A stretch of 64,000 nt of DNA, taken from Sphingobacteriaceae bacterium (GTDB lineage Bacteria; Bacteroidota; Bacteroidia; Sphingobacteriales; Sphingobacteriaceae). A program made the translations under genes and the position numbers. The DNA lies in the NCBI GenBank assembly GCA_947463785.1, contig CANHRG010000003.1, positions 1-64,000 on the forward strand, written 5' to 3'. The notes under the pieces are model-generated. The model had not been told where the DNA came from, ran no database searches, and saw only the letters and a list, made by a program, of their open reading frames with translations. Of this stretch, positions 2,714-16,637 are shown in pieces. How positions within the stretch are numbered: position 1 is the first letter of the stretch; every line of letters begins with the position of its first letter.

Positions 2714-2790
2714 TGGTGCGCCCACCTGGGCTCGAACCAGGGACCAAAAGATTATGAGTCTTCTACTCTAACCGACTGAGCTATAGGCGC
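2714..2790 (-). tRNA. tRNA with CAT anticodon (Met, elongator type; Ile2 possible)
   Basis: A 77-base cloverleaf can be folded by eye on the minus strand: acceptor GCGCCTA/TGGGCGC, discriminator A and an encoded CCA. The anticodon stem GAAGA/TCTTT closes the loop CTCATAA, and the T arm is CCTGG-TTCGAGC-CCAGG. The anticodon is CAT. It could be elongator tRNA-Met or the tRNA-Ile2 that TilS modifies to lysidine; the loop is shared by both. The acceptor stem is fully paired, so an initiator tRNA is unlikely. Confidence 0.93.
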
Positions 2791-6519: not shown

Positions 6520-7580
6520 GTAAAACCTTAAACAGTACCGGATACACCATTTATTTTGAAAATAGCCTGAAAGAATTAGGGGAATTTCTTCAAAAAAACA
6601 GCTATTCCAAGATCTTTTTCCTGGTCGACAGAAATACAGCAACACATTGCCTACCTCTTTTACAACAGGAATTACCCGAACTTACGGCCTTCGATATCAT
6701 CGAAATTGAACCCGGAGAGGAAAACAAGAACATCGATTTCTGTATCGGGATATGGAACATGTTGCTCGATTTCGGTGCCGATCGCAGTAGTTTGCTCATT
6801 AACTTAGGCGGAGGAGTGGTTTGCGACATGGGGGGATTCGCAGCTTCTACGTTTAAACGCGGCATTGACTTTATACAGATTCCAACTACCCTCCTGGCAC
6901 AAGTTGATGCTTCTGTAGGTGGCAAAACCGGAATAGATTTAAATCACATCAAAAATTGCATCGGCACGTTCAACCAGCCCAAAGCAGTTTTTATTGAGCC
7001 AAGATTCTTAACAACACTTGATGAACGTCAACTTTATTCCGGCTTTGCCGAGATGCTCAAACACGGATTGATAGCCGATGCAGCCTACTTTGAAGAACTA
7101 ACAAAGCTTAATCCTCATCAAATCGATAGCGCTCATATTTACCGTTCTGTTAAACTTAAAAACGAGATCGTAAGAGCAGATCCTAGGGAACAAAACCTTC
7201 GTAAAACGCTCAACTTTGGACATACCATCGGTCATGCAGTAGAGAGTGTTTTTCTAGAAACTGACAAACCACTTTTGCATGGCGAAGCTTTGGCAATAGG
7301 CATGATTTGCGAAGCGTATTTGTCTCATCGTATTAACCAATTATCGACCTCAGAATTAGAAAAAATTTGCTTTAAATTAACTAGTTTAAAAAATTTACAG
7401 TCAATTAGTTATAATATTTATACTAAACTAATTGATTATATGAAAAATGATAAAAAAAACCAATCCGGAAAAATCGGTTTTGCCTTGTTAAATCGTATCG
7501 GATCGTGTCAATACGATCAATATATTGAACCTAAATTGATTGTCGAGAGTCTGGATTTTTATCAGAAAAGATTTGCATAA
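6516..7580 (+). CDS. aroB: 3-dehydroquinate synthase
   Basis: 354 residues from ATG 6516; an in-frame TTG at 6507 would lengthen it inside the S4 gene and is unlikely. It converts DAHP to 3-dehydroquinate, the second step of the shikimate pathway, using NAD and a divalent metal. Diagnostic segments: LINLGGGVVCDMGGFAASTFKRG, IQIPTTLLAQVDASVGGKTGID, GFAEMLKHGLIAD, and LNFGHTIGHAVE with LLHGEALAIGM, which supply the metal-binding Glu and His residues. The region 7370-7450 is markedly A+T-rich. Its last bases carry the -33 element of the promoter for the following pheA operon, so aroB lies upstream of the attenuator and is not subject to it. Confidence 0.95.
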   Translation: MSKTLNSTGYTIYFENSLKELGEFLQKNSYSKIFFLVDRNTATHCLPLLQQELPELTAFDIIEIEPGEENKNIDFCIGIWNMLLDFGADRSSLLINLGGGVVCDMGGFAASTFKRGIDFIQIPTTLLAQVDASVGGKTGIDLNHIKNCIGTFNQPKAVFIEPRFLTTLDERQLYSGFAEMLKHGLIADAAYFEELTKLNPHQIDSAHIYRSVKLKNEIVRADPREQNLRKTLNFGHTIGHAVESVFLETDKPLLHGEALAIGMICEAYLSHRINQLSTSELEKICFKLTSLKNLQSISYNIYTKLIDYMKNDKKNQSGKIGFALLNRIGSCQYDQYIEPKLIVESLDFYQKRFA

Positions 7581-7602
7581 TTCATGGAAGTGTGTAGCTT
7601 TG
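7573..7602 (+). promoter_or_regulatory. Promoter of the pheA-aroC operon
   Basis: TTG (7573-7575, inside the last codons of aroB) and TAGCTTTG (7595-7602) are 19 bases apart, the same spacing as the proline dehydrogenase promoter. Transcription would start near 7608-7612, immediately before the leader-peptide ATG. Confidence 0.7.
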
Positions 7603-7612
7603 AGAAACAGAG

Positions 7613-7675
7613 ATGAACAAAATTTATACATATCAATTCAGCTACTTTTACTTTAGCAGTAAGAGCCGGGACTGA
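7613..7675 (+). CDS. Phe/Tyr-rich leader peptide of the pheA operon
   Basis: A 20-codon open frame, MNKIYTYQFSYFYFSSKSRD, ends at TGA 7673. Seven of its residues 5-14 are aromatic: Tyr 5, 7, 11, 13 and Phe 9, 12, 14. Tyr-Phe-Tyr-Phe are consecutive codons at 7643-7654. This is the pattern of leader peptides that sense charged tRNA-Phe/tRNA-Tyr (as E. coli PheL does for Phe). It stands between a good promoter and a terminator hairpin just ahead of pheA. Codons 18-20 (AGC CGG GAC) are themselves part of the antiterminator sequence. A protein product of lasting function is not expected. Confidence 0.85.
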   Translation: MNKIYTYQFSYFYFSSKSRD

Positions 7676-7741
7676 TTTGTATTCATCATAATTGATAGTT
7701 GAAATTCAAAGTCCCGGTTAAACAGCCGGGACTTTTTTTTT
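7664..7741 (+). promoter_or_regulatory. Transcription attenuator (terminator/antiterminator) before pheA
   Basis: AGCCGGGACT occurs twice, at 7664-7673 and 7724-7733. Either copy can pair with AGTCCCGG at 7710-7717. Pairing with the second copy gives a 7-bp GC-rich hairpin (GTCCCGG/CCGGGAC, loop of eight, A-U extension) followed by nine T at 7733-7741: an intrinsic terminator. Pairing with the first copy gives an antiterminator. A ribosome that finishes the leader peptide covers 7664-7675 and blocks the antiterminator. One stalled at the Tyr/Phe codons leaves it free. So Phe/Tyr shortage should allow read-through into pheA. The base pairing is seen directly; the regulatory logic is inferred from classical attenuation. 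Confidence 0.85.
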
Positions 7742-7749
7742 AGGCATAC

Positions 7750-8574
7750 ATGAACAAACGAGTAGCAATACAAGGCACAAGAGCTTCCTTCCATGAAGAA
7801 GCTGCCTATAAATTTTTTGGAGAAGAAATTGAAACCGTCGAGTGTGTTTCTTTCAAACAAACCTGTGAGGTTTTAAAAAGAAGCGAAGCAGATTGTGTAG
7901 TAATGGCCATAGAAAATTCCATAGCAGGAAGCTTATTGCCCAATTACACCCTACTCCAAGAGTACAATTTTGCTATTGTAGGCGAAGTATACTTACCCAT
8001 CCAATTGCATTTATTAGCCTTGCCGGGTGTTAAATTTGAGGACATTAAGTACGTAGAATCTCATCCAATTGCTATCCGTCAATGCATTGATTTTTTCGAC
8101 GAATTCCCCCATTTGCAGGTAATTGAAAGCAACGATACAGCTGCTTGTGCAAAAAAGATCAGAGAGCAAAACTTAACAGACACTGTTGCCATTGCCAATA
8201 CTCTTGCAGCAAAGCTCTACAACTTGGAAATTTTGGAACGCCGTATCGAATCTAACAAGAAAAATTATACCCGTTTTTTGATTCTGAGCAAGGATAATTC
8301 AGCTGTAACCACCATCAATAAAGCTTCATTAAGCTTTCAGGTTGGTAACGCAGTAGGTTCATTAGCCAAAGTTTTACAGATATTTGCAGAAAAGGCAATC
8401 AACCTGACTAAAATCCAATCCATGCCCGTTTTAGGCAAACGTAATGAGTATAATTTTTACGTAGATATTGAATGGGGAGCGGATGCCAATTACGATGCCG
8501 CTATTGGCCAGGTAGTAAAGCATACACTAAACTTTACTTTAATGGGTGAATACGAGAAGAACGATAAAGCCTAA
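7750..8574 (+). CDS. pheA: Prephenate dehydratase
   Basis: 274 residues; converts prephenate to phenylpyruvate in phenylalanine synthesis. The periplasmic-binding-protein-like catalytic domain spans about residues 1-180: IQGTRASFHEEAAYKFFG, MAIENSIAGSLLPNYTLL, a YVESHPIAIRQC segment, and the catalytic T-R-F in NKKNYTRFLIL. An ACT domain for feedback control follows (about 195-270), SLSFQVGNAVGSLAKVLQIF then INLTKIQSMPV, where Phe would bind. It is monofunctional; chorismate mutase is fused to the DAHP synthase encoded next, six bases downstream. It is the first full gene behind the Phe/Tyr attenuator, so it is controlled both by transcription and by allostery. Confidence 0.95.
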   Translation: MNKRVAIQGTRASFHEEAAYKFFGEEIETVECVSFKQTCEVLKRSEADCVVMAIENSIAGSLLPNYTLLQEYNFAIVGEVYLPIQLHLLALPGVKFEDIKYVESHPIAIRQCIDFFDEFPHLQVIESNDTAACAKKIREQNLTDTVAIANTLAAKLYNLEILERRIESNKKNYTRFLILSKDNSAVTTINKASLSFQVGNAVGSLAKVLQIFAEKAINLTKIQSMPVLGKRNEYNFYVDIEWGADANYDAAIGQVVKHTLNFTLMGEYEKNDKA

Positions 8575-8579
8575 TTGAT

Positions 8580-9677
8580 ATGAAATTAAACTTAACTATA
8601 AAACCCTTAAATACTTGGTTTACTGAAAGTAATCAACCTCCTCTTATTGCAGGCCCTTGTAGTGCAGAAACCGAAGAACAACTCTTGAGTACCGCTAAGT
8701 TATTAGCACAAACGGGCCGGGTGGCAGTTTTACGTGCCGGGATTTGGAAGCCCAGAACTCGTCCGGGGGAGTTTGAAGGAGTGGGTAGCATTGGTTTAAC
8801 CTGGCTACAAAAAGCAAAAGCAGAAACAGGCTTACCTACTGCTGTGGAAGTAGCCAATGCCAAACACGTTGAAGAGGCTTTAGCTGCAGGTGTTGACGTG
8901 CTTTGGGTGGGTGCCCGGTCTACTGTTAATCCATTTACCGTGCAAGAAATTGCAGATGCCTTGAAAGGAGCCGATGTGCCGGTATTGGTAAAAAATCCGG
9001 TAAATCCCGATCTTTCTTTGTGGTGCGGTGCCTTAGAACGCATTAATAATGCAGGAATTACCAAATTGGCTGCCATCCACAGAGGCTTCTCTTCGTTTGA
9101 AAAAACAGCTTTCCGCAACGAACCCATGTGGGAATTGGCCATACAGCTGAAAACGTTGGCTCCTGAATTGCCTATTTTCAACGATCCGAGCCACATTTGC
9201 GGAAATAGAGAATTGATACCTTACATTGCTCAAAAAGCCTTAGACCTAGACATGCAGGGCTTGATGATTGAATCGCATATTGATCCTTCGGTGGCCTGGA
9301 CTGATGCCAAGCAACAATTGACCCCTACTGCACTAAGCGAACTAATTGGGCGCTTAACTTTGCGTCAGGCCGAATCAAACGACAATAAATTTGTCGACAA
9401 ACTGACCGAGCTACGAGAAAAGATTGACAAAATTGATGATCAAATCATCCAAAAAATGGCCGAACGCATGAAAGTTGTAGAAAAAATTGGGGAATATAAA
9501 CGAGATAGCGGCGTTACGATTTTACAAGTGAGCAGGTGGGATGAAATACTGCAAAAACGAAGCGATTTCGCTAAAGCACTAAACTTGGAGCTCGATTTTG
9601 TGGGCAAATTGTTGGAATTAATTCACAATGAGTCTATCCGTAAACAAACGGAAATCATGAACGAAGTAAAGGCCTGA
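8580..9677 (+). CDS. Bifunctional DAHP synthase / chorismate mutase (type II)
   Basis: 365 residues. Residues ~15-265 are a KDO8P-synthase-like DAHP synthase (type I-beta): PPLIAGPCSAETEEQLL, VLRAGIWKPRTRPGEFEG, VLWVGARSTVNPFTVQEIAD, VLVKNPVNPDLSLW, IHRGFSSF, PIFNDPSHICGNR and MIESHIDPSVAWTDAKQQLTP. The C-terminal ~90 residues are an AroQ-type helical chorismate mutase: LTELREKIDKIDDQIIQKMAERM, VVEKIGEYKR and ELIHNESIRKQ. It therefore carries both the entry step of the shikimate pathway and the chorismate branch to prephenate. This fusion order is characteristic of Bacteroidota. Stop and next start overlap as TGATG with aroA. Placing this enzyme behind the attenuator lets Phe/Tyr supply set flux into the whole pathway. 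Confidence 0.95.
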   Translation: MKLNLTIKPLNTWFTESNQPPLIAGPCSAETEEQLLSTAKLLAQTGRVAVLRAGIWKPRTRPGEFEGVGSIGLTWLQKAKAETGLPTAVEVANAKHVEEALAAGVDVLWVGARSTVNPFTVQEIADALKGADVPVLVKNPVNPDLSLWCGALERINNAGITKLAAIHRGFSSFEKTAFRNEPMWELAIQLKTLAPELPIFNDPSHICGNRELIPYIAQKALDLDMQGLMIESHIDPSVAWTDAKQQLTPTALSELIGRLTLRQAESNDNKFVDKLTELREKIDKIDDQIIQKMAERMKVVEKIGEYKRDSGVTILQVSRWDEILQKRSDFAKALNLELDFVGKLLELIHNESIRKQTEIMNEVKA

Positions 9678-10906
9678 TGAAATCGATTATCCTGTCTCAT
9701 CCTAATCAAAAAATTAATGCTCAGATTGAGCTCACAGGCTCTAAGAGTGAGAGCAACAGGGCGCTTATTTTACAAGCCCTGAGTCAGGGAAAAATCGTTG
9801 TAGCTAATCCTTCAGCGGCAGCAGATACAGCAACTTTGGACGGTATTCTAAACTCAGCACCCACAAAAGTCATTGATGTTGGTCCTGCCGGTACAGCCAT
9901 GCGCTTTCTGACAGCTTTTCTTAGCCTACAACCCAGAGAATTTGTACTTACCGGAACTAAACGCATGCAAGAACGCCCTATTGGAATCTTGGTTGATGCT
10001 CTGCGTAGGTTAGGTGCCCAGATTGAATACACTGAAAATGAAGGATTTCCACCACTTAAAATCAAAGGACCATTCGTTCAAAAAACAAATAAAATCTGCA
10101 TAAAAGGCAATATCAGCAGTCAATACATCTCTGCATTGTTGCTCATTGCCCCTTCCCTGCCTCAGGGCTTAGCTTTGCAGATTGAAGGTGAACTGACCTC
10201 CAAACCGTATGTTGAGATGACGCTTGCCATGTTAGCACAGGCAGGTATCAGGAATGAATGGACAGATCAAATTATTCGTATTGAAAAACAAGATTTTAGC
10301 CCAAGCAAAATTACCATAGAACCCGATTGGAGTGCAGCTTCGTATTGGTATGCAATTGCGGCATTGGCCAAAGAAGCCGAATTATTTTTACCCAATCTAC
10401 AGATTTACAGTTTGCAGGGTGACAGCAAAATCACCGAGTTGATGGCCAATTTTGGGGTCAGTTCGCAGTTTAAAAATGGAGGCATTGCTCTATTCAAAGA
10501 GGATCGGAAACCTATTCGTAAAATATTTGATCTGAAAGACTGTCCGGACCTAGCACAAACCATTATTGTTTGCTGTGCGGCACTAGGGCACGATGCAAGC
10601 TTTACCGGCTTAGAAACTTTAAAAATCAAAGAAACTAACCGCGTAAAAGCTTTACAAAATGAACTTTCTAAGCTTGGCGTCAAACTTATTGAGAAGAATT
10701 TAGTTTACAAACTCGATTGTAGCGAGCATAAATTACCTGCAAAAATTAGTATTGAAACCTACGAAGATCACCGAATGGCCATGGCCTTTGCGCCATTGGC
10801 ATTAGTTATCGATGAGGTCGAGATCCAAGATCCAGATGTGGTGCAAAAATCGTATCCTGATTTTTGGAACGATTTGAAAAAAGCAGGCTTTGAAATAAAA
10901 ATGTAA
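9677..10906 (+). CDS. aroA: 3-phosphoshikimate 1-carboxyvinyltransferase (EPSP synthase)
   Basis: 409 residues; joins shikimate 3-phosphate and phosphoenolpyruvate to form EPSP. Signature segments: LTGSKSESNRALILQAL near the N-terminus (catalytic Lys, Ser and Arg), GPAGTAMRFLTAFLSL, QERPIGILVDALRRLGA, ISSQYISALLLIAPSL, an IEPDWSAASYWYA loop, LKIKETNRVKALQNELSKLG, and YEDHRMAMAFAPLAL followed by DPDVVQKSYPDFW. The DAHP synthase reading frame overlaps its first base. Ten bases separate it from aroC. It is slightly shorter than the ~427-residue E. coli enzyme, as is usual in Bacteroidota. The GPAGTAMR form (rather than NAGTAMR) places it with the Bacteroidota group. Confidence 0.95.
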   Translation: MKSIILSHPNQKINAQIELTGSKSESNRALILQALSQGKIVVANPSAAADTATLDGILNSAPTKVIDVGPAGTAMRFLTAFLSLQPREFVLTGTKRMQERPIGILVDALRRLGAQIEYTENEGFPPLKIKGPFVQKTNKICIKGNISSQYISALLLIAPSLPQGLALQIEGELTSKPYVEMTLAMLAQAGIRNEWTDQIIRIEKQDFSPSKITIEPDWSAASYWYAIAALAKEAELFLPNLQIYSLQGDSKITELMANFGVSSQFKNGGIALFKEDRKPIRKIFDLKDCPDLAQTIIVCCAALGHDASFTGLETLKIKETNRVKALQNELSKLGVKLIEKNLVYKLDCSEHKLPAKISIETYEDHRMAMAFAPLALVIDEVEIQDPDVVQKSYPDFWNDLKKAGFEIKM

Positions 10907-10915
10907 TTTTAGCAC

Positions 10916-12004
10916 ATGGCAGGAAACACCTTCGGCGAATTATTTAGAATTACCACTTTCGGTGAATCACATGGCGAAGCCATTGGTGTAGTGATTGACG
11001 GCTGCCCAGCGAGCCTGAAAATCGATTTGGATTTTATTCAAGCCGAAATGGACAAACGTCGTCCGGGCCAATCGCACATTACCACACAACGCAAAGAAAG
11101 TGATACCGTAAAGATTTTATCCGGCGTATTTGAAGGTAAAACCACCGGCACGCCTATTGCTATACTCATCCCGAACGAAGATCAACGGTCAAAAGACTAT
11201 AATCATCTCCAAGATACTTTTCGTCCATCGCATGCCGATTTTACCTATCAGGAAAAATACGGGCACCGCGATTACCGTGGCGGAGGGCGTTCATCTGCTC
11301 GAGAAACCGCTGCACGTGTAGCCGCAGGCGCTGTAGCTAAACTAGTACTACAAGAGGTTGGCATCGAAATCTTTGCGCATGTTTCTGCAGTTGGAACTAT
11401 TCATGCACCAAATCTGGATCACAATAACCTAAACACCTTGCTCCAACATCGCGAAAGCAATGTAGTACGCTGTGCTGATCCGGCTACAGCCAAAGAAATG
11501 ACCGAACTTATCGAAGCGATTCGAAAAGAGGGCGATACTGTAGGGGGCAAAATTTCGTGTATAATCCGGAATTGCCCGGCAGGTCTGGGTGAACCCGTTT
11601 TCGATAAACTGCATGCCGATTTGGGTAAAGCCATGTTGAGCATCAATGCCGTGCATGGTTTTGAGTATGGTTCTGGATTTGCCGGCACGGAAATGAAAGG
11701 TTCAGAACACAATGATTTATTTATCCGCTCGGGTAAGCAAACCAAAACCCTCACCAATTATTCTGGGGGTATTCAAGGTGGAATTAGCAACGGAATGGAT
11801 ATTGCTTTTCGGGTTGCATTTAAGCCTGTGGCTACCTTAATGCAGAGCCAAACTACTGTAGATAAAAACGGAAATTCAACCAATCTTGACGGTAAAGGTC
11901 GTCACGATCCCTGCGTGGTTCCACGTGCGGTAGCTATTGTGGAAGCCATGGCCGCCTTGGTACTTGCAGACCATTACCTCAGAAATAAAACTGCTAAGCT
12001 TTAA
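10916..12004 (+). CDS. aroC: Chorismate synthase
   Basis: 362 residues; forms chorismate from EPSP with reduced FMN as cofactor. Three family signatures are visible: [20 protein letters not shown] at the N-terminus, the long [24 protein letters not shown] segment, and the C-terminal [26 protein letters not shown]. The catalytic His of GESHG and the Asp of GRHDP are both present. It is the last gene of the attenuated operon, and its final four bases overlap the end of the convergent E1 gene. No terminator is visible between the two convergent genes. Confidence 0.96.
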
Positions 12005-16270: not shown

Positions 16271-16634
16271 GGGGTCGACCGGAATTGACAGGATGGCGGT
16301 AAGTATGTAAGCATGCAGCGCATTGTGAGTCTAGCGCTATAATCTGAACTTTCAAACTATAATTGGCGAAAATAACTACGCCTTAGCTGCCTAATTTAGA
16401 ATTAGCTCAGCTTTTGTCTCGTTCAGCTTCGGTTTGGTAGGCTGAACACCAGAGGCATCGAATCACCGAACTGGTTTGTTTAGGGTGCGATAAACAAACG
16501 AGAACAAGCACCTACGGAAGACGGTATAGGTAAGCGGTTGACCTTCCCCTTCTCGACAATTGAATAACTGCTAAGCATGTAGAAAGCGTAATTTACACCA
16601 TGTTTGGACGAGGGTTCGAATCCCTCCGACTCCA
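16271..16634 (+). ncRNA. ssrA: tmRNA (transfer-messenger RNA)
   Basis: It begins GGGGTCGACCGGAATTGACA and ends GGGTTCGAATCCCTCCGACTCC-A. The two ends form the tRNA-like acceptor (GGGGTCG/CGACTCC) and T arm. The internal tag frame is at 16365-16394: GGC GAA AAT AAC TAC GCC TTA GCT GCC TAA, giving GENNYALAA, the form known in Bacteroidota. It rescues stalled ribosomes and tags their products for proteolysis. The 3' CCA is not encoded (CAC follows the discriminator), so it must be added after transcription. Length is 364 bases. Confidence 0.97.
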
Positions 16635-16637
16635 CAC

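Follow-up and report, generated by a model that had tools for sequence, protein, structure and literature searches.

A predicted ribosome-mediated Tyr/Phe attenuator before a pheA operon of Sphingobacteriaceae and its relatives across the class Bacteroidia

The window analyzed here, a stretch of 64,000 nucleotides from a Sphingobacteriaceae bacterium (contig CANHRG010000003.1), carries a chorismate-pathway operon in the order pheA - DAHP/CM - aroA - aroC, preceded by a leader region with the parts of a transcription attenuator (Table 1). The product of pheA scored 190.7 bits against its best-matching model, below the curated cut-off of 219, and the best available NCBIfam matches of the DAHP/CM fusion likewise all fell below curated cut-offs. 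Upstream of the leader and on the same strand lies aroB, which ends at 7580, about 130 bases before the terminator hairpin. The window also contains a tRNA gene (2717-2790, minus strand) and a tmRNA gene (16271-16637, plus strand).

Table 1. Leader elements and operon genes in the window, with the evidence for each assignment
Feature	Coordinates	Strand	Evidence
Bacteroidota-type promoter, TTG + 19-base spacer + TAGCTTTG	7573..7602	+	Sequence; comparison with relatives
Leader ORF, 20 codons, peptide MNKIYTYQFSYFYFSSKSRD*	7613..7675	+	Sequence; homologous aromatic leaders in relatives
Segment 1, likely protector strand inside the leader ORF, partner of segment 2	7625..7644	+	Duplex energy; class-wide same-peptide controls
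Segment 2, antiterminator strand A (7664-7673) plus 3' flank pairing with segment 1	7664..7683	+	Sequence; duplex energy; A:B covariation
Segment 3 (B), partner of segment 2 (antiterminator) or segment 4 (terminator)	7708..7719	+	Sequence; covariation
Segment 4 (C) plus T-run of the intrinsic terminator	7724..7741	+	-18.7 kcal/mol; covariation
pheA, prephenate dehydratase, first gene of the controlled operon	7750..8574	+	NCBIfam NF008865 best match
DAHP synthase/chorismate mutase fusion	8580..9677	+	NCBIfam DAHP and chorismate mutase models
aroA, EPSP synthase	9677..10906	+	TIGR01356 above cut-off
aroC, chorismate synthase	10916..12004	+	TIGR00033 above cut-off

The leader ORF starts with an ATG at 7613, ends with a TGA at 7673-7675, and has seven Tyr/Phe codons within codons 5 to 14, a stretch of 10 codons. 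Its last codons overlap the first copy of a 10-base direct repeat, AGCCGGGACT, found at 7664-7673 and 7724-7733, and a complement common to both copies, AGTCCCGG, is located between them at 7710-7717. The terminator stem (7708-7719 paired with 7724-7735, -18.7 kcal/mol) runs into nine T residues at 7733-7741. These elements are as a preliminary description of this DNA had given them, except that the T-run is separated from the pheA ATG (7750) by 8 bases rather than nine. The leader region as a whole folds more stably than expected by chance (z = -4.7 versus 200 shuffles), and the stretch from A to B (7660-7723), folded alone, reaches -21.7 kcal/mol.

The promoter proposed in that description, a TTG (7573-7575) followed after 19 bases by TAGCTTTG (7595-7602), is present, and its box recurs at the expected place in relatives. 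According to PMC9723704, the consensus of the Bacteroidota -7 box is TAnnTTTG. Of 167 Bacteroidia leaders, 112 had an exact match to this motif within the preceding 60 nt, versus 3.8% in shuffles. The TTG stood at a spacing of 19 in 64 of 115 cases, and matches at spacings 18 to 21 summed to 106.

Judged by comparison of upstream sequences, the putative attenuator is broadly conserved in Bacteroidia. Among 191 distinct upstream regions of pheA in the class, an aromatic leader together with a terminator, the latter called by a fold-based detector, was found in 165. The controls scored positive in 5 of 1718 windows on the same strand, 18 of 2122 on the opposite strand, and 7 of 1650 upstream regions after shuffling. 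The 165 positives cover about 20 family labels (counted by hand), and nearly all close relatives share the same attenuator design.

About 26 of the 191 pheA upstream regions had no attenuator by this detector. A distant operon start, the limits of the scan, or a very divergent pheA accounts for some of these. Four of the operons without an attenuator at pheA have the order DAHP - aroB - aroA - pheA, with pheA in fourth place (L157, L158, L188, and L191). The expectation that the attenuator moves to the start of the operon when pheA is not the first gene was borne out in 4/4 cases, with an attenuator before the first gene, DAHP/CM (L233-L236). The attenuator at pheA has apparently been lost or replaced in family f12. 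At f12 loci L123, L125-L128, and L131-L133, pheA is followed by an aminotransferase gene, and no recognizable aromatic leader or terminator lies upstream.

A classical four-segment ribosome-mediated transcription attenuator very probably controls pheA-DAHP/CM-aroA-aroC. The elements known from trp-, his-, and pheA-type attenuators were all found, namely, a short leader ORF in which codons for the pathway's product abound, a 3:4 terminator, a 2:3 helix exclusive of it, and a 1:2 helix. The spacing also separates stalling from completion in a model that places the front edge of the ribosome 12 nt beyond the first base of the codon in the A site. In this model, a stall at any of the seven aromatic codons leaves 8 to 10 A:B pairs, a stall at codon 15 leaves six, and from codon 16 on none are left. 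Across 167 leaders of the class, the distance from the first base of the last aromatic codon to the start of A is 8 to 23 nt (median, 13).

We infer that the operon responds to the supply of Phe and Tyr. When either is scarce, the ribosome would stall on the Tyr/Phe codons, as dictated by the charged tRNAs, and cover segment 1 while segment 2 stays free. The 2:3 helix would then form, block the terminator, and allow RNA polymerase to read into pheA. When both amino acids are plentiful, the ribosome would reach the stop codon and cover segment 2; the 3:4 helix would then form, and transcription would stop 8 bases short of pheA. Such a switch would depend on coupling between ribosome and polymerase. 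If the leader is not translated, 1:2 could occupy segment 2 and favor termination. For the window leader, the outcome without translation is uncertain because the free A..B fold (-21.7 kcal/mol) is more stable than the terminator (-18.7 kcal/mol).

The presence of Tyr codons before a prephenate dehydratase gene would be accounted for if the host makes Tyr from Phe. This is plausible because the host genome (1.8 Mb, 99.5% complete) yielded no PF02153 (prephenate dehydrogenase family) match and encodes an aromatic amino acid hydroxylase. Weak PF02153 matches in relatives were rejected as tyrA candidates, since their lengths (about 420 to 460 or 270 to 300 amino acids) are those of other dehydrogenases or reductases. 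Several members of the window's family appear to be without both enzymes. No pheA was found in three close relatives from the same genus as the host (G003, G004, and G005), which suggests that Phe synthesis has been lost in some members of this small-genome genus.

Phe and Tyr dominate the aromatic clusters, and Trp also occurs in 54 of 167. A leader that senses all three aromatic amino acids, Trp included, would suit an operon of the common chorismate pathway, and Trp residues inside the clusters (55) far exceed single-step neighbors of Phe and Tyr codons (for example, Leu, 3; Cys, 5; Ile, 2). We consider such sensing possible but doubtful. The window leader has no Trp codon, the Trp-containing cases are related by descent, and in the window's family the GG of the Trp codon pairs with segment 2 and may be kept for that pairing. 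We do not claim Trp sensing because the codon also serves pairing.

The alternative helices have been maintained while the sequences that form them diverged. Although leader sequences vary greatly from family to family, antiterminator strands still fit their own partners: in a swap test outside the window's family, the mean A:B score was 18.8 with a leader's own partner, 12.5 (standard deviation, 0.37) with permuted partners, and 12.0 with shuffled A. Compensatory changes in the A:B pairing of the window's family exceed those in shuffles. In an alignment of 76 sequences from the family, 94.4% of the cells of helix 2:3 are paired, with 9 double changes versus 2.2 in shuffles, and 98.0% of those of helix 3:4 are paired, with 26 double-change cells versus 3.4. 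The swap test and this covariation bear out the earlier claim of mutually exclusive antiterminator and terminator helices, and the comparison of relatives that had been proposed as a check found the Tyr/Phe codons conserved as well.

The preliminary description had taken the element for a compact three-segment design. Such an attenuator would have no protector helix, so that an untranslated leader would read through by default. Helices 2:3 and 3:4 indeed suffice for the on and off states, and the A..B fold of the host leader is stronger than the additional duplex that we detected between 7625-7644 (leader codons 5 to 11) and 7664-7683 (-12.2 kcal/mol, versus -4.8 kcal/mol in codon-shuffled leaders). 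In addition, 1:2 covariation within the window's family did not exceed that in shuffles, the helix being conserved there. Against this reading, 1:2 pairing is stronger than in controls in which codons were redrawn synonymously and the leader peptide was left unchanged, both outside the window's family (mean, -13.0 versus -10.5 kcal/mol; p = 2.7e-7) and inside it (mean, -13.8 versus -11.5; p = 1.5e-14), although the compared leaders are related by descent rather than independent, which makes these p-values optimistic. The pairing also has a consistent place across families, in the middle of the leader against A and its flank. We consider a three-segment attenuator unlikely and dropped this model because the 1:2 pairing exceeds the same-peptide controls.

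A 1:2 protector helix is thus likely to be present here and across families, giving a four-segment layout. In leaders such as TTYWFGYFYYFSKSRD, the GG of a conserved Gly codon pairs with the CC of segment 2, and this codon may be kept for 1:2 pairing. The view that the last leader codons are themselves the antiterminator strand holds for the window and most relatives; about 24 of the 167 leaders have their stop codon ahead of the strand.

Mutually exclusive helices are also a feature of riboswitches and protein-bound attenuators, and a regulatory protein or small molecule bound to the leader RNA could in principle choose between them. This is very improbable, as the element has no Rfam match and its most conserved trait, the run of aromatic codons with its 8- to 23-nt spacing to A, is readable only by a ribosome. 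An Rfam search at E ≤ 10 returned no amino-acid leader family, with only chance matches, such as those to ribosomal-protein and rimP leaders below their cut-offs, and no Rfam T-box model matched. That the hairpin merely terminates aroB, with the aromatic ORF arising incidentally from AT-rich sequence, is likewise very improbable despite the nearby aroB end on the same strand: the hairpin is separated from the aroB stop by a promoter box, the element accompanies the operon even where a gene other than aroB lies upstream, the reading leaves the matched A:B pairing and the conserved codons unexplained, and it is contradicted by the four genomes in which the element precedes DAHP/CM as the first gene. 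The ribosome-mediated Tyr/Phe attenuator put forward in the preliminary description is strongly supported by the 165 positive upstream regions, the covariation, the geometry, and the displaced operons.

Some relatives carry the attenuator more than once. In most of the genomes examined from genus g77 (family f49), pheA is preceded by two consecutive, complete units of aromatic leader and terminator; some of the genomes have a single unit only. Tandem attenuators were located at L203-L213, L218, L220, and L222-L226, and further doubled attenuators at L166, L174, L193, and L246. Tandem attenuators with two leader ORFs in one leader mRNA are known from mgtCBR of Salmonella, where mgtM and mgtP sense different signals, ATP and proline (PMC3641672). 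The g77 arrangement likewise has two leader ORFs, but both are aromatic.

Leaders of another kind were seen before hisG. In the window's family, His-rich leader ORFs lie directly upstream of this gene (L255, L257, L260-L264, and L267); no intrinsic terminator was detected at these loci, L260 having only a weak hairpin, and most of the terminator-less leaders share the block TGTATGTTTCTACGTGAAAC. In other families (L253, L259, L265, and L269), hisG is preceded by a His leader with an ordinary terminator.

The attenuator in the window works by a known principle and not a new one. The trp operon attenuator has 1:2, 2:3, and 3:4 pairings with the regulatory codons placed over segment 1. The window element has the same pairings and codon placement, with Tyr/Phe codons instead of Trp codons and with a segment 2 that, in most cases, extends over the last part of the ORF, including its stop codon. 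In the pheL attenuator of Escherichia coli and other gammaproteobacteria, a short Phe-rich leader and alternative helices control prephenate dehydratase. A short leader rich in Phe codons, antiterminator and terminator helices, and the prephenate dehydratase target are common to both. The window leader differs in mixing Tyr with Phe codons, its operon also contains DAHP synthase/CM, aroA, and aroC, and the two are not related through any Rfam model.

A comparative study by Lopatovskaya et al. (2010; doi 10.1134/S0026893310010164, cited in PMC4833913) may cover Bacteroidota. The preliminary description knew of no mixed Tyr/Phe case in this phylum, which is nevertheless not blank: a transcriptome study of Flavobacterium psychrophilum reports that pheA is preceded by a structured 5' element, which other genera of Flavobacteriaceae share and which has no Rfam hit, as well as clues for leader-peptide attenuation of amino-acid operons (PMC9723704). 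That element has phylum and target gene in common with ours and may be the same one; the passages on it give no leader peptide, segments, or covariation for pheA. Small ORFs reminiscent of leader peptides have also been described in Bacteroides thetaiotaomicron (PMC7366714).

We regard it as an even call whether these elements make up a class-wide aromatic attenuator family of Bacteroidia, about 20 families deep, sometimes doubled, and sensing more than one aromatic amino acid simultaneously. Most work on attenuation of amino-acid operons has dealt with Proteobacteria, and some with Actinobacteria. Since the element is absent from Rfam, searches based on Rfam miss it. If the proposed switch is real, the coupling of ribosome and polymerase would be tight enough to permit attenuation in a phylum where Shine-Dalgarno sequences are mostly absent. 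It occurs in about 20 families of Bacteroidia, with a spacing that makes sense only if the ribosome closely trails RNA polymerase, and it would thereby make transcription-translation coupling in Bacteroidota directly testable. The tandem copies in relatives would offer a natural test of how serial attenuators shape the response.
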